This document shows positions 30,081 to 52,261 of a stretch of DNA of 64,000 nucleotides, one piece after another. Position 1 is the first letter of the stretch; each line of letters opens with the position of its first letter. This DNA comes from Alteromonas sp. RKMC-009 (GTDB lineage Bacteria; Pseudomonadota; Gammaproteobacteria; Enterobacterales; Alteromonadaceae): assembly GCF_003584565.2 (NCBI RefSeq), contig NZ_CP031010.1, positions 806,001 through 870,000 on the forward strand. Direction: 5' to 3'. A model generated the notes under the pieces. The model ran no database searches and was not told the DNA's origin. It saw only the letters and a list, made by a program, of their open reading frames with translations. Position numbers and translations under genes: made by a program.

Positions 30081-31454
30081 TCATTTACTGCCTGATGTGG
30101 CTTTTACTACCCGTTCCGCCACATCAATCAGGCGACAATTCTGATCCATCGCTGTTTTTTGCAGGCGACGGTAAGCCTGATCTTCGGTTAATTGCCATTG
30201 CTGCATAATAAGCAGTTTGGCACGGTCGATACATTTTTGATCGGTAATCGCCTGGCGGGCTTCCTCCAGTGCAACTGACATGTTTTTGATGTGTTCAGTC
30301 TGATCGCATAACAAGTCGTAAAAAGACCGGTGTGCGGATAAATTTTCCGCATTGGAAATGGTATCCGGACCAGACATTTCTGATCCCCGTAAGCCAGGCA
30401 TTTGCGGATCAAACAGCATGGTCAGTGGTGTGCCCGTTGGATTAGGTTGTTGTTCCAGCGTTTTTACCCGTTGATGATGATTTTTCAGCTCGGCATCTGC
30501 ACGACTGACCAGCTCTGAAGCCAGTGAAATGAGTTTGGTGGTCAGAGCTTCGTCAATGGATTGCATGGCATCAATGCGGGTCGTGGCAATGTCATACCAT
30601 ACTTCACTGATTTGTCCGTCAATGGGACTGCCATCAGCCAGTTGTTTTATCATTGTCCGCAGGCGGGTAAGGTCGGCCTGGGCATCGCTCTGACAGATGT
30701 CTTCCCATTGCTGCAGCGTTTGCGGATCGGCAAAAGCCGTAAAGATGTCAAAACTGTGTTGCTGGTCCTGCTGGAGTTGTTCAAGGCGGTCGCATAATGA
30801 TTTATTAAAATGAGTTTCAGCAAAGCCAATAGCGCCCCATGCCCGTTCCTGTCCGGCCAGTTCTTTGCCTTGTAAAAAATTGAACAGCGCCACCAGAAGC
30901 CGGGTGATATCCGGATCACTTGCCACGTCAGCGGCCTCAAAGATAACTGAGAGTAAACCCGTTACCAGCCGGCAGTATGCCTGTGTTGACTCAAGGGATG
31001 TCAGTGCCTGTTCAGCTACCTGATCCCGCAGGGAAGAAAGGTTATCCAGCCCTTGTAGCGCCATGGTGATGCTTACCAGTAAGCGCATGTTGGCGGCACT
31101 TTCGTCGCCCGAGAGATAGAGAGATTTCAACTGGCTGCGTAAGGTTTGGTCGGCAAAATTACTGTCTGCAATCTGATCTTCCCGTTGCTGACCAAACCGT
31201 TCCCCTTTCGACGCCAGATATACGTTACTGATACCGCGCTCCCGCTGGAGTTGATGGATCATGTCTTTCACTGAGGTCACCAGTTTGCAGTTGGATGCCA
31301 GTTGATTAAGTGCGTGAATTTCGGCGTGCTTTGCCGCCAGTAGGAACCGTTTTGTCGCTTCGCTGAATACTGCCATGGTGGTGGTGGTGTCTTTCTGTGG
31401 TGGTCGCAATCGACGTTGCCTGTTTATAAGATTTAGCAAAGCCTGTTCCACCAT
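30081..31454 (-). CDS. nasR: Nitrate-responsive antiterminator NasR (NIT-ANTAR)
   Basis: A 457-aa cytoplasmic regulator. A helical NIT sensor domain covers about 30-330 (CKLVTSVKDMIHQLQRERGISNVYLASKG is the nitrate-sensor-like opening). A coiled coil and a C-terminal ANTAR RNA-binding domain follow (about 385-450: ITDQKCIDRAKLLIMQQWQLTEDQAYRRLQ, then DVAERVV). In Klebsiella, NasR binds nitrate and prevents termination in the nasF leader. Three leaders in this window carry matching targets. I kept the start at 31454 (AGG 5 nt upstream); Met27 at 31376 is closer to the family's usual length. The gene is divergent from the formate/nitrite channel unit. Confidence 0.93.
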   Translation of the reverse strand: MVEQALLNLINRQRRLRPPQKDTTTTMAVFSEATKRFLLAAKHAEIHALNQLASNCKLVTSVKDMIHQLQRERGISNVYLASKGERFGQQREDQIADSNFADQTLRSQLKSLYLSGDESAANMRLLVSITMALQGLDNLSSLRDQVAEQALTSLESTQAYCRLVTGLLSVIFEAADVASDPDITRLLVALFNFLQGKELAGQERAWGAIGFAETHFNKSLCDRLEQLQQDQQHSFDIFTAFADPQTLQQWEDICQSDAQADLTRLRTMIKQLADGSPIDGQISEVWYDIATTRIDAMQSIDEALTTKLISLASELVSRADAELKNHHQRVKTLEQQPNPTGTPLTMLFDPQMPGLRGSEMSGPDTISNAENLSAHRSFYDLLCDQTEHIKNMSVALEEARQAITDQKCIDRAKLLIMQQWQLTEDQAYRRLQKTAMDQNCRLIDVAERVVKATSGSK

Positions 31455-31665: not shown

Positions 31666-31681
31666 TGGCCTTTTCCTTGCT
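31666..31681 (+). promoter_or_regulatory. Sigma-54 promoter of the nitrite-channel unit
   Basis: TGGC-CTTTTCC-TTGCT fits the -24/-12 consensus TGGCACG-N4-TTGCW with exact spacing. The expected start of transcription is about 31691-31693, giving a 160-nt leader. Confidence 0.78.
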
Positions 31682-31690
31682 GTTTAAAAT

Positions 31691-31782
31691 TGCAACACGG
31701 GTTTTTGCATACAACACAATGTAAACTTGGATAACGGCGTCCAATACCACACTGGAAACAGTGCATGGTTGGGCGTTTTTTT
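31691..31782 (+). promoter_or_regulatory. NasR-type attenuator leader of the nitrite-channel unit
   Basis: The antiterminator hairpin at 31727-31744 has arms TTGGAT and GTCCAA around the hexaloop AACGGC (A1, G4 as in ANTAR targets). Its 3' arm is part of the 5' arm of an intrinsic terminator at 31738-31782 (CGTCCA/TGGGCG outer stem, ACCA/TGGT, inner CACTG-GAAA-CAGTG, then seven T). The two folds exclude each other. A first hairpin near the transcript start (TGCAA/TTGCA, 31691-31709) is the candidate P1, but its loop does not fit the hexaloop rule cleanly. Confidence 0.8.
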
Positions 31783-32798: not shown

Positions 32799-34520
32799 AT
32801 GCTTAGTTTATCCATCGGTCAATATTCCAGTGCAGGGGAAAAGCCGCTGAACCAGGACAGTTATGGTTTCAGGCTTCCCGAAGGTGATTTGCTTACATTT
32901 AAAGGCGCTGCGGTGGCACTGGCAGACGGCATCAGTACCAGTTCAGTGAGTCACATTGCCAGTCAGGTATGTGTTAAACAGTTTCTCGAAGATTATTTTT
33001 GTACTTCAGATACCTGGACGGTCCCCCGTGCGGCTACGCAAGTTATTACAGCAATAAATCGCTGGTTACTCGGCCAGAGTCGCAACAGTCCCTATGCCGG
33101 CGAACCGGACAAAGGTTACGTTTGCACATTCAGTGCACTGATTTTCAAGCATCAACGTGTATATGTATTTCATCTGGGGGACGCCAGAGTGTACCGGTTG
33201 CGGGGCAGGGTGCTGGAGCAACTTACCCGCGACCACCGTCAGATGATAAATGGTGAAAAGCACTATTTGTCCAATGCCATGGGTATTAGTGAGTCACTAC
33301 AACTTGATAAAGACAACCGCTCACTGAAAGAGCAGGACTGCTTCCTTCTGCTCACAGACGGTGTGTATGAGTTTATCGATGAGGCCAGCCTCTGCAGTGT
33401 AGTGACTGAATATGAGCATGATCCGGATGAAGCAGCGAAGAAGCTGGTGGAAATGGCCTTTGCCAGAGGCAGTAACGATAACCTGACAGCTCAGATAGTC
33501 AGGGTAAATACCCTGCCTGCAGCCAATACCAGTGCGGCAGGGCATGAAGAGGAAGAACTGCCCATTCCCGGCGTGCTGCAAAGCGGGAATTTTCTCGATC
33601 AGTTTAAAATTGTCCGCAATATCTATCACAGTGCCCGCAGCCACGTTTACCTGGCTCAGAACACAGCAGATGGCAGCCAGGTGGTGCTGAAAGTGCCTTC
33701 TGTGGAAATGGCACACGAACTGGCCCATCTTGAAGCATTCAGGATGGAAGAGTGGATAGCAAGGCGAATTCACAGCCAGCATGTAGTGAGCGCCCCTGAT
33801 CAGCAGGCTGCAAAAACGGCATTATATACCGTGACAGATTTTGTGCCGGGACAAACACTGGCCCAGTGGCTGAATGATAACCCACAGCCGGATTTAGAAA
33901 CTGTCCGCATGATCATTGAGCAGGTCGCCAGAGGATTGATGGCATTGCATCGCAAAGACGTTCTCCACCGTGATATCCGGCCTGAAAATATCATGATTGA
34001 TATCAACCATCACATCACACTGGTGGATTTAGGTGCGGCTTCTGTTGCCGGCATCAATGAATTTGCCGGTGATAATGATGATATTCCCGGTACAGCTATT
34101 TATGCCGCACCGGAGTATTTTCTTGGTCAGGGGGGCAGTGAACAGTCTGAGCAGTTTTCGCTGGCGGTGCTGACTTACTATTTGCTCAGTGGCCGCTTCC
34201 CTTATGGCACGCAGGTTGCCAAATGCAGAAGCGTGACATCACAACATAAATTGAAATATGAAAGCGTGTTAGATCCGAACCGGAGCATTCCCTTCTGGCT
34301 TGATCACACTTTAAGAAAAGCACTGCATCCCAATCCGCTCAAGCGCTATGACGCACTTTCAGAGTTTGTGTATGCCCTGAGACATCCCGATGCAAAATTT
34401 CTCAGCAGCGAGAGACCGCCTTTACTGGAGCGTAATCCCGTTGCTTTCTGGCAGGGAGTCAGCGGTTTACTCCTTTGTCTTATCCTCGTTCTGTTACTGG
34501 AACGATTTTCACTTATCTAA
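32799..34520 (+). CDS. PP2C phosphatase - Ser/Thr kinase fusion
   Basis: A 573-aa two-enzyme protein. Residues 1-240 form a PP2C phosphatase with metal-site motifs ALADGIS, HLGDARVYRL, LTDGVYE and SNDNLTAQ. Residues about 270-530 form a Hanks-type kinase with the Lys in VVLKVPS, the catalytic loop HRDIRPEN (HRD 390-392), DLGAAS in place of DFG, and APE in YAAPEYF. One C-terminal membrane helix (about 548-568) tethers it with both domains cytoplasmic. Similar kinases sit in nitrate assimilation loci of Pseudomonas (e.g. PA1782). The target is unknown; a transporter or NirB are guesses. Confidence 0.9.
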   Translation: MLSLSIGQYSSAGEKPLNQDSYGFRLPEGDLLTFKGAAVALADGISTSSVSHIASQVCVKQFLEDYFCTSDTWTVPRAATQVITAINRWLLGQSRNSPYAGEPDKGYVCTFSALIFKHQRVYVFHLGDARVYRLRGRVLEQLTRDHRQMINGEKHYLSNAMGISESLQLDKDNRSLKEQDCFLLLTDGVYEFIDEASLCSVVTEYEHDPDEAAKKLVEMAFARGSNDNLTAQIVRVNTLPAANTSAAGHEEEELPIPGVLQSGNFLDQFKIVRNIYHSARSHVYLAQNTADGSQVVLKVPSVEMAHELAHLEAFRMEEWIARRIHSQHVVSAPDQQAAKTALYTVTDFVPGQTLAQWLNDNPQPDLETVRMIIEQVARGLMALHRKDVLHRDIRPENIMIDINHHITLVDLGAASVAGINEFAGDNDDIPGTAIYAAPEYFLGQGGSEQSEQFSLAVLTYYLLSGRFPYGTQVAKCRSVTSQHKLKYESVLDPNRSIPFWLDHTLRKALHPNPLKRYDALSEFVYALRHPDAKFLSSERPPLLERNPVAFWQGVSGLLLCLILVLLLERFSLI

Positions 34521-34535
34521 CCCGTGGAGCCCACT

Positions 34536-34985
34536 ATGATTACTGACAGACAGCAAGTCACCGCAATGATTATGAGCGCAAAAGTCACTAAAGGCATTAA
34601 ATGGTCACAGGCCGCAGAAGTGATCGGCGAGTCGAAAGAATGGAGTACTGCAGCATGCCTGGGCCAGATGGCTATGACCAAAGCGCAGGCTGAAGCCACC
34701 GGTGAACTATTCGGGTTAACTGAAGAAGCCGTCGCCTGGTTGCAGATTGCACCTTATAAAGGCTCTCTGCCAACGGCGGTTCCTACTGATCCGTTAATTT
34801 ACCGCTGGTACGAACTGGTGAATGTGTACGGCACCACACTGAAAGAGCTCATTCACGAAGAGTTTGGCGACGGCATTATGAGTGCCATCGATTTTGAAAT
34901 GGACTTAACCCGTGAACCTGATCCTAAAGGCGACCGTGTGAAAGTGGTGATGTCAGGTAAATTCCTGCCGTACAAAACCTACTGA
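34536..34985 (+). CDS. cynS: Cyanate hydratase (cyanase)
   Basis: A 149-aa cyanase that converts cyanate and bicarbonate to ammonia and CO2. A helical N-terminal part is followed by the catalytic region: Arg and Glu in YRWYELV and Ser in GIMSAIDF, within the family block HEEFGDGIMSAID. It ends at PYKTY. The ATG at 34536 is chosen because GTGGAG lies 7 nt upstream; an in-frame GTG at 34524 is inside that site. It is 15 bp after the kinase gene, so it belongs to the NtrC/NasR-controlled unit. Confidence 0.95.
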   Translation: MITDRQQVTAMIMSAKVTKGIKWSQAAEVIGESKEWSTAACLGQMAMTKAQAEATGELFGLTEEAVAWLQIAPYKGSLPTAVPTDPLIYRWYELVNVYGTTLKELIHEEFGDGIMSAIDFEMDLTREPDPKGDRVKVVMSGKFLPYKTY

Positions 34986-39455: not shown

Positions 39456-39471
39456 TGGCATCATATCTGCT
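39456..39471 (+). promoter_or_regulatory. Sigma-54 promoter of the nirB operon
   Basis: TGGC-ATCATAT-CTGCT keeps GG and GC at the exact -24/-12 spacing, with one mismatch (CTGC for TTGC). Start of transcription is expected near 39482, giving a leader of about 177 nt. Confidence 0.68.
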
Positions 39472-39541: not shown

Positions 39542-39634
39542 GCCTGACGCTGTGTATGGAAACAATTTGTGCACGTTAAGTGCGTATCAGGCAAAGAAGC
39601 CCATGTTCAGTTTATCTGAGTGTGGGCTTTTTTT
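39542..39634 (+). promoter_or_regulatory. NasR-type attenuator leader of nirB
   Basis: The core antiterminator hairpin is GGC-AAAGAA-GCC at 39590-39601. The loop has A1 and G4, and the stem extends through a 2x1 internal loop by GTAT/ATGT. It overlaps the 5' arm of the terminator at 39598-39634 (AGCCCA...TGGGCT with inner TTCAG/CTGAG, then seven T). The upstream P1 candidate is a weak TGT-ATGGAA-ACA (39553-39564, also A1/G4). GCCTGA (39542-39547) can alternatively pair with TCAGGC (39587-39592) and sequester the antiterminator. Confidence 0.74.
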
Positions 39635-47501: not shown

Positions 47502-47517
47502 TGGCATACCTGATGCA
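47502..47517 (+). promoter_or_regulatory. Sigma-54 promoter of the nrtA operon
   Basis: TGGC-ATACCTG-ATGCA keeps GG and GC at exact -24/-12 spacing with one mismatch (ATGC for TTGC). Start of transcription is expected near 47528, with a 150-nt leader. Confidence 0.7.
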
Positions 47518-47587
47518 ATAACCAATTTGCGAAAGTTACTGCTTATTAAAAGAACATTAATAGTAACGCGCTCACAACTTATTCATG

Positions 47588-47663
47588 CTCCAAAGTGATT
47601 TGGAGTGCGGCAACGAAGCCCACCACCTTAGCGGTCATTCGCTAAGGTGGTGGGTTTTTTTTT
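47588..47663 (+). promoter_or_regulatory. NasR-type two-hairpin attenuator of nrtA
   Basis: P1 (47588-47605): CTCCAA-AGTGAT-TTGGAG, hexaloop A1/G4. P2 follows directly (47605-47623): GTG(C)GGC-AACGAA-GCCCAC, hexaloop A1/G4, with one bulged C. P2's 3' arm is the beginning of the terminator's 5' arm at 47619-47663, a perfect 15-bp stem (CCCACCACCTTAGCG) with a 6-nt loop and nine T. P2 and the terminator are mutually exclusive, so NasR binding to P1-P2 would let polymerase pass to nrtA, whose ATG is 18 bp beyond. Confidence 0.9.
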
Positions 47664-47680
47664 GGCAACGAGGAACCCAC

Positions 47681-49084
47681 ATGAAAGCGTCAAAACCGTT
47701 ATTTGGTCTGACAAAGAAAGTAAAAACGCTGGCATCTACGCTGGCTCTGTCGTTGACAATGGCAGGCGCAAGCGTCTCAGCTGTTACAGCACAGGAAATT
47801 GACTGGCCCGAGAAAGAAGAACTTAAATTCGGCTTTATCAAACTGACTGATATGGCACCTCTGGCTATTGCTTATGAGAAAGGTTTCTTCGAAGACGAAG
47901 GTTTGTATGTCACGTTGGAAGCGCAGGCAAACTGGAAGGTTCTGCTCGACCGTGTTATTGACGGTCAGCTGGACGGTGCACATATGCTGGCCGGACAGCC
48001 TCTGGGTGCAACCATCGGTTTCGGTACTGAAGCGCACATTATTACTGCATTCAGCATGGACTTAAACGGTAACGGTATCACCGTCTCCAACGACATCTGG
48101 AAGGAGATGGAAAAGCACATCCCTCAGGAAAACGGTCAACCAGTTCACCCGATTAAAGCGGATTACCTGAAGCCGGTAGTCGACAGTTACCGTGAAGCGG
48201 GCAAGCCTTTCAATATGGGCATGGTATTCCCGGTATCTACCCACAACTACGAGCTGCGTTACTGGCTGGCGGCCGGTGGTATTCACCCGGGCTTCTATGC
48301 ACCGCACAAAGGTGACACATCCGGTCAGATTGATGCTCAGGCACTGCTGTCTGTGACACCTCCGCCGCAAATGCCGGCCACCATGGAAGCGGGTACCATT
48401 TACGGTTATTGCGTAGGTGAACCCTGGAACCAGCAAGCCGTGTTTAAAGGCATTGGTGTACCGGTTATTACCGACTATGAAATCTGGAAAAACAACCCGG
48501 AAAAAGTATTCGGTGTCAGCAACGAATGGGCCGAAAAGTACCCGAACACGCACCTTCGTGTGGTAAAAGCGATGATCCGTGCAGCGATGTGGCTGGATGA
48601 AAACAACAACGCTAACCGTCCTGAAGCGGTAAAAATTCTCTCTAAACCTTCATATGTAGGTGCAGACGAAGCGGTACTGGCAAACAGCATGACAGGTACA
48701 TTTGAATACGAAAAAGGCGACAAGCGTGAGGTGCCTGATTTCAACGTATTCTTCCGCTACAACGCTACTTACCCGTACTACAGCGATGCGATCTGGTATT
48801 TAACGCAAATGCGTCGTTGGGGTCAGATCTCTGAAGCGAAACCTGACAGCTGGTATATGGACATGGCGAAGAAAGTTTACCGCCCTGACATTTATGCCGT
48901 TGCTGCTAAAGCGCTAATCGCGGAAGGTAAAGCGAAAGCTGCAGACTTCCCTGATTTCGACTCAGAATCTGGTTTTAAACCACCTCAATCAGAATTCATT
49001 GACGGCGTAACGTACGACGGTACTAAGCCCAATGCTTATCTGGAAAGCTTTGGTATCGGCCTGAAAGGCGACACCGTACTTTAA
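47681..49084 (+). CDS. nrtA: Nitrate ABC transporter substrate-binding protein
   Basis: A 467-aa NrtA/CmpA/NasF-type periplasmic protein. The start is the ATG at 47681 ([10 protein letters not shown]) with AGGA 6 nt upstream; the open frame runs back to 47585 but through the attenuator, so that extension is not translated. The signal peptide ends near VTA|QE. Binding-fold marks: [58 protein letters not shown]. It binds nitrate (possibly nitrite) for NrtB/NrtD. Confidence 0.93.
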
Positions 49085-49105: not shown

Positions 49106-50095
49106 ATGAGCAAGTCAGCGTCATTAGTCACATCCATTGGATTAAAAGAAGGCAATATGGGCAAGGTCATATTATCAAACCTGCAAGCGTTGTTGTTGCC
49201 AGTCATTGGTTTACTGCTTTTCCTCGCCGTCTGGAACGGGGTAGCAAAAACCATCGATACGTCACTGGGCCAGTTCCCTGGTCCGGCACAGGTATGGACG
49301 CAGGCGCTGACCCTCATGGATGAACACAATGCGCAACGTGAAAAGGCTGACGCATTTTACGAGCGTCAGGAAGAACGTAATGCTGCGCGGGTAGCAAAGG
49401 ACCCGGACTATGTACCGAAAATTCGTCCTTTTACCGGCGCACCAACCTTCTTTGATCAAATCTGGACAAGCTTGTACACCGTTATGGTCGGCTTTTTTAT
49501 TGCGTCGGTCATCGCTGTACCGGTAGGGATCATGTGCGGACTAAGCAAGTCTGCTTACACCGCGATTAACCCTCTTATCCAGCTTTTCAAACCCGTGTCT
49601 CCGTTGGCCTGGCTGCCATTGGTAACGATGGTAGTCAGTGCCCTTTATGTGTCAGACGACCCGATGTTTTCAAAGTCATTTGTCACTTCTGCATTCACGG
49701 TATCACTGTGCTGTTTGTGGCCAACACTGATCAATACGGCTGTGGGTGTATCTAACATCGACAAAGACCTGGTGAATGTAAGCCGCGTACTGCGTCTCAA
49801 GCCGCCTACGCACCTGACTAAAATTGTTTTACCTGCCTCAATTCCGATGATCTTTACCGGTTTGCGCTTGTCGCTGGGTATTGGCTGGATGGTATTGATT
49901 GCCGCAGAAATGCTGGCACAAAACCCGGGGCTGGGTAAGTTCGTGTGGGATGAGTTCCAGAACGGCAGCTCAGAATCACTGGCCCGAATTATGGTTGCTG
50001 TACTGACTATCGGTGCCATCGGCTTCGTACTGGACCGCATCATGCTGATGTTTCAGCGCATGGTGAGCTGGGACAAAAACAGCGTATTACGCTAA
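49106..50095 (+). CDS. nrtB: Nitrate ABC transporter permease
   Basis: A 329-aa inner-membrane permease of the NrtB/TauC type. The first helix (LPVIGLLLFLAVWNGV) is followed by a charged periplasmic insert of about 60 residues (EKADAFYERQEERNAARVAK), then five more helices. The EAA loop region is VNVSRVLRLKPPTHLTKIVLPASIPMIFTGLR, which contacts the ATPase. The start is supported by GGGAG upstream. It is 21 bp after nrtA. Confidence 0.92.
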   Translation: MSKSASLVTSIGLKEGNMGKVILSNLQALLLPVIGLLLFLAVWNGVAKTIDTSLGQFPGPAQVWTQALTLMDEHNAQREKADAFYERQEERNAARVAKDPDYVPKIRPFTGAPTFFDQIWTSLYTVMVGFFIASVIAVPVGIMCGLSKSAYTAINPLIQLFKPVSPLAWLPLVTMVVSALYVSDDPMFSKSFVTSAFTVSLCCLWPTLINTAVGVSNIDKDLVNVSRVLRLKPPTHLTKIVLPASIPMIFTGLRLSLGIGWMVLIAAEMLAQNPGLGKFVWDEFQNGSSESLARIMVAVLTIGAIGFVLDRIMLMFQRMVSWDKNSVLR

Positions 50096-50110
50096 TCAGG
50101 AGAAACAGAT

Positions 50111-50968
50111 ATGACTGCAAAACATCTTGAACTGACGCAGGTAGGTATCGATTTTCCTACCCCGAAAGGCCCGTTCACTGCTTTACGGGACGTAAACCTG
50201 AAAATCAGCAAAGGCGAATTCGTATCATTAATCGGGCACTCAGGGTGTGGTAAGTCCACCGTACTGAACATCGTTGCCGGTTTACATCAGGCAACTTCCG
50301 GCGGTGTCATTCTGGACAACGCAGAGGTGAAAGAGCCCGGTCCGGAGCGGGCGGTAGTATTCCAGAACCATTCTTTGCTGCCCTGGCTGACCGTTTACAA
50401 AAATGTAGAGCTTGCTGTTAAGCAAACTCTGCGTGGTAAGTCTAAAGCCGAAATCAAAGACTGGGTGATGCACAACCTTGAGCTGGTGCATATGACCCAT
50501 GCGATCGACAAGCTGCCTTCGGAAATTTCCGGCGGGATGAAACAGCGTGTTGGTATTGCCCGCGCACTGGCTATGGAGCCCAAAGTACTGCTCATGGACG
50601 AACCCTTCGGTGCCCTTGATGCACTGACCCGTGCCCATTTGCAGGATTCACTGATGGACATCCATGCTGATCTTGGTAACACCGTCATCATGATTACCCA
50701 CGATGTGGATGAAGCCGTTTTATTGTCTGACCGCATCGTGATGATGACTAATGGTCCGGCAGCAACGGTTGGTGAAATTCTGGATATTAATCTGCCAAGA
50801 CCACGGGATCGTCTGGTGCTGGCAGATAACCCGGAATACAACCATTACCGCCATGAAGTACTCACCTTCCTGTACGAAAAACAGAAAAAAGTTGAGCCGG
50901 TAAACAGCCGTCAAAAAGATTCAAAAAACACTAAGGCTACATCAGCAAAAAAGTCTGATGCTGCCTGA
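50111..50968 (+). CDS. nrtD: Nitrate ABC transporter ATP-binding protein
   Basis: A 285-aa ABC ATPase of the NrtD/TauB family. Walker A GHSGCGKST, Q loop VFQNHSLLPW, signature SGGMKQR, Walker B LLMDEPFGALD and H loop MITHDVDEA. The C-terminus has a Lys/Ser-rich tail. There is no NrtC-like fused sensor domain, so nitrate feedback through NrtC is not present here. It is 15 bp after nrtB. Confidence 0.94.
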   Translation: MTAKHLELTQVGIDFPTPKGPFTALRDVNLKISKGEFVSLIGHSGCGKSTVLNIVAGLHQATSGGVILDNAEVKEPGPERAVVFQNHSLLPWLTVYKNVELAVKQTLRGKSKAEIKDWVMHNLELVHMTHAIDKLPSEISGGMKQRVGIARALAMEPKVLLMDEPFGALDALTRAHLQDSLMDIHADLGNTVIMITHDVDEAVLLSDRIVMMTNGPAATVGEILDINLPRPRDRLVLADNPEYNHYRHEVLTFLYEKQKKVEPVNSRQKDSKNTKATSAKKSDAA

Positions 50969-51058: not shown

Positions 51059-52261
51059 ATGAAACTAACTGCAATGTACCCGCGCACACTGCTTGCTGTT
51101 GCGCTCACAGGTGTCTTTTCCCCGGCTATGGCAGCCGACTGGTATGACGCAATGAAAGAAACCACTGCTACGGCAGCGTTTAATTTGCGTTACGAAGGTG
51201 TGCAACAGGATAATGCGCTGGCTGACGCCGATGCCCTGACGTTACGTACGATGGTGGGAATCACATCCGGTAGCTACAAAGGTTTTTCTTTCACTGCTGA
51301 AATGGAAGATGTGCGTATTGCCTTAGGGCAGGGCGATTACTCAGTGCCACCGGCCGGTTATCAGGCGGGAGAATATTCCGTTATCGCAGACCCTGAAACC
51401 ACCGAGCTGCACCAGGGATTTGTGCAATATAAAAATGAAGGCTTGACTATCAAAGGTGGTCGCCAGATCATTGCACTGGACGGTCACCGCTTTGTCGGCC
51501 ACGTGGGCTGGCGTCAGGACTGGCAAACCTTCGACGGGGTAACCGCAAAGTACACGTCCGGTAATATGTCTGCATTTTACGGGTATGTTACCCAACGTAA
51601 CCGTATTTTCGCTGAAGCGGCAGACCTGGACAGTAAAGATCACCTGCTGAACCTTTCTTACAGCAGCGATATCGGTAAGTTCACGGCGTATGCGTACTTA
51701 CTGGAAGTGGATAACGGTATTGATAACGGACTTGATACTTACGGCATCAGCTATGCCGGCAGCACCGCAACGGACTCCGTGAAGTGGATTTATAATGCTG
51801 AATATGCCACGCAAACCAGCGATACCCCGGCGGCCAGCTATGATGCCGATTATTACATGTTAGAAGGTGGTGCAGTGGTTTCCGGCATCACGGCTAAAGT
51901 GACTTATGAAGTGCTGGGTTCAGACAACGGCATGTACGGCTTCTCTACACCGCTGGCGACCCTGCATAAGTTTAACGGCTGGACGGATCAATTCCTTGCT
52001 ACACCGGCACAAGGTCTTGAAGACCTGGCCTTTACCGTCAGTGGCGGTCTGGCAGGTGGTAAATGGCTGGCAGCTTACCACGCGTTTGATGCAAATGAAG
52101 CCACTGAAGGCGTCAGTGATCTCGGTAGTGAAATCAATGTACAATACGTTACAAAAGTAGCTGAGCATTTCACACTGGGTCTGAAATACGGTACGTATTC
52201 TGCCGGTGATATTAAAGTGGACACTGACAAAGTATGGGTTTGGATCGGCGCGAAATTCTAA
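51059..52261 (+). CDS. Outer-membrane porin, alginate-export-like family
   Basis: A 400-aa protein with a signal peptide (MKLTAMYPRTLLAVALTG...AMA|AD) and alternating amphipathic strands ending in a terminal Phe (VWVWIGAKF), a beta-barrel signature. Marks such as LTIKGGRQIIALDGHRFVGHVGWRQDWQTFDG resemble the alginate-export (PF13372) fold. Its place directly after nrtABD suggests an outer-membrane channel for nitrate; that role is inferred. mobA begins inside its last 28 bp. Confidence 0.8.
   Translation: MKLTAMYPRTLLAVALTGVFSPAMAADWYDAMKETTATAAFNLRYEGVQQDNALADADALTLRTMVGITSGSYKGFSFTAEMEDVRIALGQGDYSVPPAGYQAGEYSVIADPETTELHQGFVQYKNEGLTIKGGRQIIALDGHRFVGHVGWRQDWQTFDGVTAKYTSGNMSAFYGYVTQRNRIFAEAADLDSKDHLLNLSYSSDIGKFTAYAYLLEVDNGIDNGLDTYGISYAGSTATDSVKWIYNAEYATQTSDTPAASYDADYYMLEGGAVVSGITAKVTYEVLGSDNGMYGFSTPLATLHKFNGWTDQFLATPAQGLEDLAFTVSGGLAGGKWLAAYHAFDANEATEGVSDLGSEINVQYVTKVAEHFTLGLKYGTYSAGDIKVDTDKVWVWIGAKF

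Follow-up and report, generated by a model that had tools for sequence, protein, structure and literature searches.

The window, meaning the whole 64,000-nucleotide stretch of Alteromonas sp. RKMC-009 DNA analysed here, carries the genes of a nitrate ABC transporter (nrtABC), whose leader contains two hairpins, P1 and P2, and an intrinsic terminator, together with a gene for a NIT-ANTAR protein (nasR). These features are as follows:

30081..31454, minus strand: nasR, NIT-ANTAR protein (PF08376, PF03861)
47502..47517, plus strand: sigma54-like promoter of nrtA, TGGCATACCTGATGCA (GG-N10-GC), 9 of 11 consensus positions
47586-47593 / 47600-47607, plus strand: P1 hairpin read from the sequence, 8 bp, loop AGTGAT at 47594-47599
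47609-47611 / 47618-47620, plus strand: P2 hairpin read from the sequence, GGC and GCC arms (3 bp), loop AACGAA at 47612-47617
47619-47663, plus strand: intrinsic terminator (sequence and folding), arms 47619-47633 / 47640-47654 with 15 of 15 pairs, loop 47634-47639
47681..49084, plus strand: nrtA, NMT1-like substrate-binding protein (PF13379, E 2.2e-97)
49106..50968, plus strand: nitrate ABC transporter permease and ATPase genes, 3' of nrtA (TIGR01183, TIGR01184)

The nearest named relative of this nrtA is that of Alteromonas confluentis (94%), and of the two matches in the genes 3' of it, that to TIGR01184 is above its cut-off and that to TIGR01183 below. The likely nrtA start is the ATG at 47681, which follows GAGGA; starting from an ATG at 47585, the whole leader (47585-47681) can also be read without a stop in the frame of nrtA. 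Directly 3' of nrtABC, at 51059-52261, is a gene for a protein with an alginate-export-type domain, which might be an outer membrane porin serving the transporter. The first-pass annotation rightly placed nasR 16 kb from the nrtA leader, and both NIT and ANTAR domains are found in its product, which holds the sole ANTAR match in a genome-wide search and is similar (E 3.8e-41) to 4akk, a nitrate regulatory protein of solved structure. The genome thus encodes the type of regulator that a NasR-controlled attenuator calls for.

The terminator is followed by nine T (47655-47663) and has a predicted minimum free energy of -31.5 kcal/mol, and the 47580-47680 region folds at -49.7 kcal/mol, with none of 200 shuffles equally stable. 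Its 5' arm overlaps P2, and the earlier description of P2 as sharing bases with a perfect 15-bp terminator with nine T is correct in letters and coordinates. P2 has the stem of at least 3 bp and the six-base loop with A at position 1 and G at position 4 (A1/G4) that are asked of each hairpin in a dual-hexaloop target; its loop is closed by a C-G pair, which has a probability of 0.99 in a fragment lacking the 3' arm of the terminator. P2 is presumed to be the NasR-binding, antiterminator hairpin.

Two more elements of the same type, absent from the first-pass annotation, are present in the window. A scan of both strands finds three A1/G4 P2-terminator sites, at 31733, 39593, and 47612, whereas the other 15 loop classes give 0 to 4 matches each and 20 shuffles 0 or 1. 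The additional features are:

31666..31681, plus strand: sigma54-like box TGGCCTTTTCCTTGCT, 5' of the formate/nitrite transporter gene, 9 of 11 positions
31710..31723, plus strand: hairpin upstream of the third P2 (from the sequence), arms TACA and TGTA, loop ACACAA
31727..31782, plus strand: third element (window scan and pattern search), P2 arms TTGGAT and GTCCAA, loop AACGGC, and a terminator with seven T
39456..39471, plus strand: sigma54-like promoter TGGCATCATATCTGCT of nirB, best score in the leader, 9 of 11 positions
39571..39583, plus strand: hairpin upstream of the nirB P2 (from the sequence), arms GCAC and GTGC, loop GTTAA, not an A1/G4 hexaloop
39590..39634, plus strand: second element (pattern search), P2 GGC[AAAGAA]GCC and a terminator with seven T, 5' of nirB (39659)

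Outside the window the genome was scanned with two specific patterns, a GGC type and a transporter type, and the GGC type has exactly two matches genome-wide, in the nrtA leader and at 39590 before nirB; elements that differ in sequence may exist elsewhere in the genome. The third element precedes a formate/nitrite transporter gene (31851; PF01226) that adjoins nasR and is divergent from it; downstream of this transporter, at 32799-34985, come a gene that fuses a PP2C phosphatase with a protein kinase and then a cyanate lyase gene. Among 59 genomes of the genus, the third-element pattern is present in five, including that of the window, and a formate/nitrite transporter gene is directly downstream in all five. 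Similarly, tblastn finds NirB encoded just downstream of all 15 of the longer second-element loci, the window's included. Of the short loci, L273 alone has a NirB match, a weak one, and the others are called nirB by position. By tblastn, two members of the group of 24 second-element clusters, G311a and G318a, do not precede nirB (no NirB match for L221 and L228). Neither of the hairpins upstream of these two P2s offers a second A1/G4 loop: the one at 31710..31723 has A1 but A4, and the one at 39571..39583 has the loop GTTAA. The longer nirB leader is predicted to fold otherwise than as this second hairpin.

All three elements have a sigma54-like box upstream, scored against the sigma54 consensus, GG-N10-GC. 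The score of 9 of 11 is reached by 11 of 300 shuffles for nrtA, by 9 of 300 for nirB, and by 35 of 300 for the transporter, whose box is weak, such that the boxes taken singly are weaker evidence than they are as a group; boxes of at least 9/11 are present in 105 of 133 leader clusters, compared with about 5 expected from shuffles.

To place the nrtA element among its relatives, 202 leaders of nrtA homologues were assembled, 122 from sampled genomes (the window's included) and 80 from named loci; some genomes occur twice, 198 are distinct over the last 300 bases, and L108 has only 21 upstream bases. Of the 202, 153 have an A1/G4 hexaloop joined to a terminator, corresponding to 135 distinct P2 surroundings, whereas the other 15 loop classes give 8 to 29 under the same rule, which still misplaces P2 in G238. 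Alternative rules gave 162/202 and 159/202 but mistook the P1 of some nasF-like leaders for P2. The leader of G257 (L027) has three successive A1/G4 hexaloop hairpins before the terminator instead of two.

The element tracks ANTAR genes across genomes. In an order-level sample of 295 genomes, 83 have an nrtA homologue, and the P2-terminator is present in 57 of the 65 of these with an ANTAR match but in none of the 18 without (Fisher, 2e-12). Of the eight ANTAR-bearing genomes scored as negative, two (G126 and G198) have a clear P2-like site in the sequence and three (G045, G099, and G189) a near-miss site by eye; in the leaders of G059, G127, and G247 no P2-like site is visible. In the genus sample, all 46 of the 59 genomes with an ANTAR match have a pattern match, although some of the matches in six of these genomes look chance-like (GGCATGG...), and the reversed control pattern matches G330 (twice) and G340 (once). 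Two of the 13 ANTAR-less genomes of the genus also match, weakly in G308 and with real-looking elements in G341, whose assembly is in 590 contigs. Because the leaders share descent, the cases counted are not independent of one another, which holds after clustering at 70% identity too. The leader counts and the ANTAR association in both samples show P2 fused to a terminator to be a real, ANTAR-linked element that is beyond chance.

These comparisons also bear on whether NasR is involved at all, as the terminator could in principle be constitutive or subject to other control, for example of a leader-peptide or Rho type. The open frame running from 47585 into nrtA would suit a leader peptide, but such a reading leaves the association with ANTAR genes unaccounted for, as well as the conservation of the P2 loop letters while the remainder of the terminator varies, and we consider it very improbable. 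The earlier proposal of a NasR-type attenuator with NasR as its likely regulator is thus supported by conservation and by the ANTAR association.

By its letters, P1 also resembles an ANTAR site, with a stem of at least 3 bp and a six-base loop, AGTGAT, with A1 and G4. When P1 forms, A47594 and U47599 are predicted to pair with a probability of 0.89, giving a GUGA tetraloop, although the tetraloop form is predicted to be better than the hexaloop form by only about 1.4 kcal/mol. If the leader is taken from 47530, a competing fold is predicted and the probability of the P1 closing pair falls to 0.09. The P1 loop is closed by A-U, such that C-G closes only one of the two loops, and the full stems of P1 and P2 are 1 nt apart, or 4 nt when the P1 stem is taken as five pairs.

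The leaders were clustered at 70% identity and divided into the genus, f11, f18, f21, f25, and the rest, groups that were defined after the leaders had been inspected. In Alteromonas, a canonical P1, meaning an A1/G4 hairpin closed by C-G and no more than 60 nt from P2, is present in 1 of the 20 nrtA clusters and in 1 of the 24 for the second element, compared with 8/8 in f18, 5/5 in f21, 5/6 in f11, 29/63 in other Gammaproteobacteria, and 0/8 in f25. Alteromonas thus has 2/44 and the other lineages 47/90 (47/82 without f25; Fisher for 2/44 versus 47/90, 1e-8), the 44 including G311a and G318a, which were dropped from one set of per-group counts (22 second-element clusters left). The contrast shrinks if any closing pair is allowed, to 7/44 in Alteromonas and 51/90 elsewhere. 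Loss of P1 is not confined to Alteromonas, since 34 of the 63 other gammaproteobacterial clusters have no canonical P1 within 60 nt; in some of these P1 may be farther off, as 32/63 have one within 140 nt. Extending the search to 140 nt regains no P1 in Alteromonas nrtA leaders (1/20).

If the closing pair is left free, 2 of the 20 Alteromonas nrtA clusters (the window and its closest relative, G302) have an A1/G4 hexaloop hairpin in the 60 nt before P2; for the other 15 loop classes the number averages 0.93 and does not exceed 2. Judged from these leaders, the A1/G4 class of the P1 loop in the window is thus not above chance, although the letters are as described. The earlier claim of two adjacent A1/G4 six-base loops therefore stands for the letters of both hairpins but is doubtful for P1 as a hexaloop, as its loop is predicted to close to a tetraloop and belongs to a class at chance level in the nrtA leaders of the genus.

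Covariance searching gives a similar result. Rfam has no matches within the 64-kb window at the gathering threshold. We built a covariance model from 27 canonical gammaproteobacterial P1-P2 leaders picked for a C-G-closed P1, so that the 100% pairing in its alignment is partly by construction; three short rows are misaligned in the P1 3' arm. In this search, which the first-pass annotation had proposed as a check, the window leader scores 10.8 bits (E 1.1 in 64 kb) and ranks sixth, and is not recognized; of the five places in the window that outscore it, one overlaps the nirB element and another the transporter element. The leader of G302 scores 24.2 bits and the nasF-like leader of G238 scores 38.9 bits; some sources that were scored also supplied model rows, but G302, G238, L107, L131, and L132 supplied none. 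The suggestion of a complete, canonical two-hairpin target is thus unsupported, on account of the low covariance score, the predicted tetraloop, the A-U closure, and a loop class at chance level.

The leader could still be an ordinary dual-hexaloop target in which NasR opens the A-U pair of P1, AGUGAU serves for recruitment, and P2 acts as the antiterminator. A1 and G4 are present in the loops of both adjacent hairpins, little energy separates the tetraloop from the hexaloop, and published work finds that antitermination in the eut system requires both hexaloops (PMC3369931, PMC8934654). The leader of G302, which is the same as that of A. confluentis (L032), carries in this position a fully canonical P1, C[AACGTA]G, and second-element leaders have a slight A1/G4 excess with any closing pair (5/24, whereas the other classes average 1.53 and reach at most 4). 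Weighing against these points are the chance-level loop class in the nrtA leaders of the genus, the score of 10.8 bits with the canonical model, the 1-nt gap between the full stems, the lack of an A1/G4 P1 in both other elements of the genome, and the A-U closure of P1, as NasR SELEX favored C-G pairs closing the loops (PMC7496416). We regard this reading as unlikely, although the letters of P1 and the canonical P1 of the closest relative mean that the P1 of the window may be a weakened true site. On balance, we lean toward the view that P1 in this strain does not serve for recruitment through a hexaloop; its role in this leader is one that we infer.

Although the loop is not conserved, the upstream stem is usually kept in the Alteromonas nrtA leaders, better than by chance (mean folding z of -2.54, with 16/20 clusters below -1.5). 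Second-element leaders have a weaker upstream fold (mean z of -1.57, 13/24 below -1.5), so the upstream hairpin probably does not offer NasR a second loop to bind. The kept stem of the nrtA leaders invites the idea that recruitment in Alteromonas has passed from the P1 loop to another feature, either a simple hairpin or an ACAA-type motif in single-stranded RNA 3' of the promoter and 5' of P1. ACAA is present in 17 of 20 nrtA leader clusters, where no 4-mer exceeds 15 in 100 shuffled sets, and in 30 of 44 clusters of both leader groups, where the shuffled maximum is 28. However, the motif was spotted first and tested later in leaders that share descent, and in the nirB-type group alone ACAA (13/24) does not stand out and the upstream fold is the weaker one, making such a replacement quite improbable. 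The ACAA stretch is mostly 20 to 50 nt upstream of P2; pairing between it and the P2 loop, looked for by eye, does not recur from leader to leader.

Loss of P1 is also not linked to the architecture of NasR. In the family to which the window belongs, the ANTAR match is in a frame of more than 400 aa (NasR-sized) or of about 200 aa, depending on the genome, the latter being NasT-like by length only, and perhaps the regulator type has been swapped over similar RNA targets within the family. A link between these sizes and P1 was considered and dropped, as the two do not correspond: f25, with ANTAR frames of about 200 aa, has a canonical P1 in 0/8 clusters, whereas f18, with frames of 400 to 448 aa, has one in 8/8.

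Taken together, the nrtA leader is probably a NasR-dependent transcription attenuator in which P2 is the sole hairpin that the genus retains as an A1/G4 hexaloop, a proposal drawn from sequence comparison; that NasR antitermination acts through P2 is the firmer part and appears very likely. Transcription would start at the putative sigma54-type promoter and, without nitrate, the nascent RNA would form the 15-bp terminator and transcription would stop. Nitrate or nitrite would presumably activate NasR, which would grip the P2 hexaloop as it emerges, and P2 so held would have its 3' arm barred from the terminator, such that the polymerase would read into nrtABC. NasR would work likewise through the P2-terminators before nirB and the formate/nitrite transporter gene, and a leader without the P1 loop would forgo recruitment or use another feature. 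With the same NasR acting on three elements, uptake and reduction would be induced together; for the organism, the prediction is that nitrate would switch on nitrite transport, nirB, and nitrate uptake at the same time.

It is an evenly balanced question whether the leaders of Alteromonas, and of lineages such as f25, are natural single-hexaloop attenuators in which P2 alone suffices for co-transcriptional antitermination and the recruitment loop P1 has been lost or an ordinary hairpin has taken its place. If they are, single-hexaloop antitermination would contradict the view that an ANTAR dimer has to contact two hexaloops to overcome a terminator. The Alteromonas leaders are natural constructs for testing P1, as they are terminator coupled, precede three transcription units in one genome, and differ in P1 between near relatives.

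As to known systems, NasR control of the nasF leader is already known, and the nrtA element belongs to that kind; what looks like a variant is that most of the genus has lost the P1 hexaloop, and has done so before more than one transcription unit. nasFED encodes a nitrate ABC transporter, as nrtABC does here. Sigma54-like boxes lie upstream of the nasF-like f18 leaders in 8/8 clusters, as before nrtA, but these leaders have a C-G-closed A1/G4 P1 in 8/8 clusters, unlike the window leader. In Klebsiella oxytoca, as in the window, a NIT-ANTAR NasR goes with a two-hairpin motif and an intrinsic terminator, in the nasFEDCBA leader, and NasR there requires nitrate or nitrite for RNA binding, with an affinity of about 12 uM for P2 alone and about 1 uM for P1P2 (PMC7496416). 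Unlike nasF, the element here also precedes nirB and a formate/nitrite transporter gene. ANTAR targets before nitrate/nitrite transporters and nitrite reductase were predicted in 2012 (PMC3369931).

In the literature searched, which included few subscription papers, single-hexaloop ANTAR sites were found in PMC8934654 only. There, Walshe et al. redefine the minimal ANTAR target as a single hexaloop, with antitermination still needing both, and call for bioinformatic and experimental study of single-hexaloop sites; a EutV dimer engages the hexaloops singly, with recruitment proposed as the task of the P1 hairpin, and Mycobacterium tuberculosis ANTAR sites do not always follow the dual rule (PMC8934654). 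The output of an ANTAR protein onto nitrate assimilation genes is shared with the NasS-NasT system of nitrate/nitrite antitermination (PMC3795266), although the regulator here is a one-piece NIT-ANTAR protein. As in Enterococcus faecalis eutP/EutV, an A1/G4 hexaloop P2 lies inside the terminator, and the mutual exclusion described for that system is the mechanism proposed here (PMC3369931); in eut, however, both loops are needed and are joined by a tuned 5- to 12-nt linker, whereas in the window P1 is doubtful and lies 1 nt from P2.
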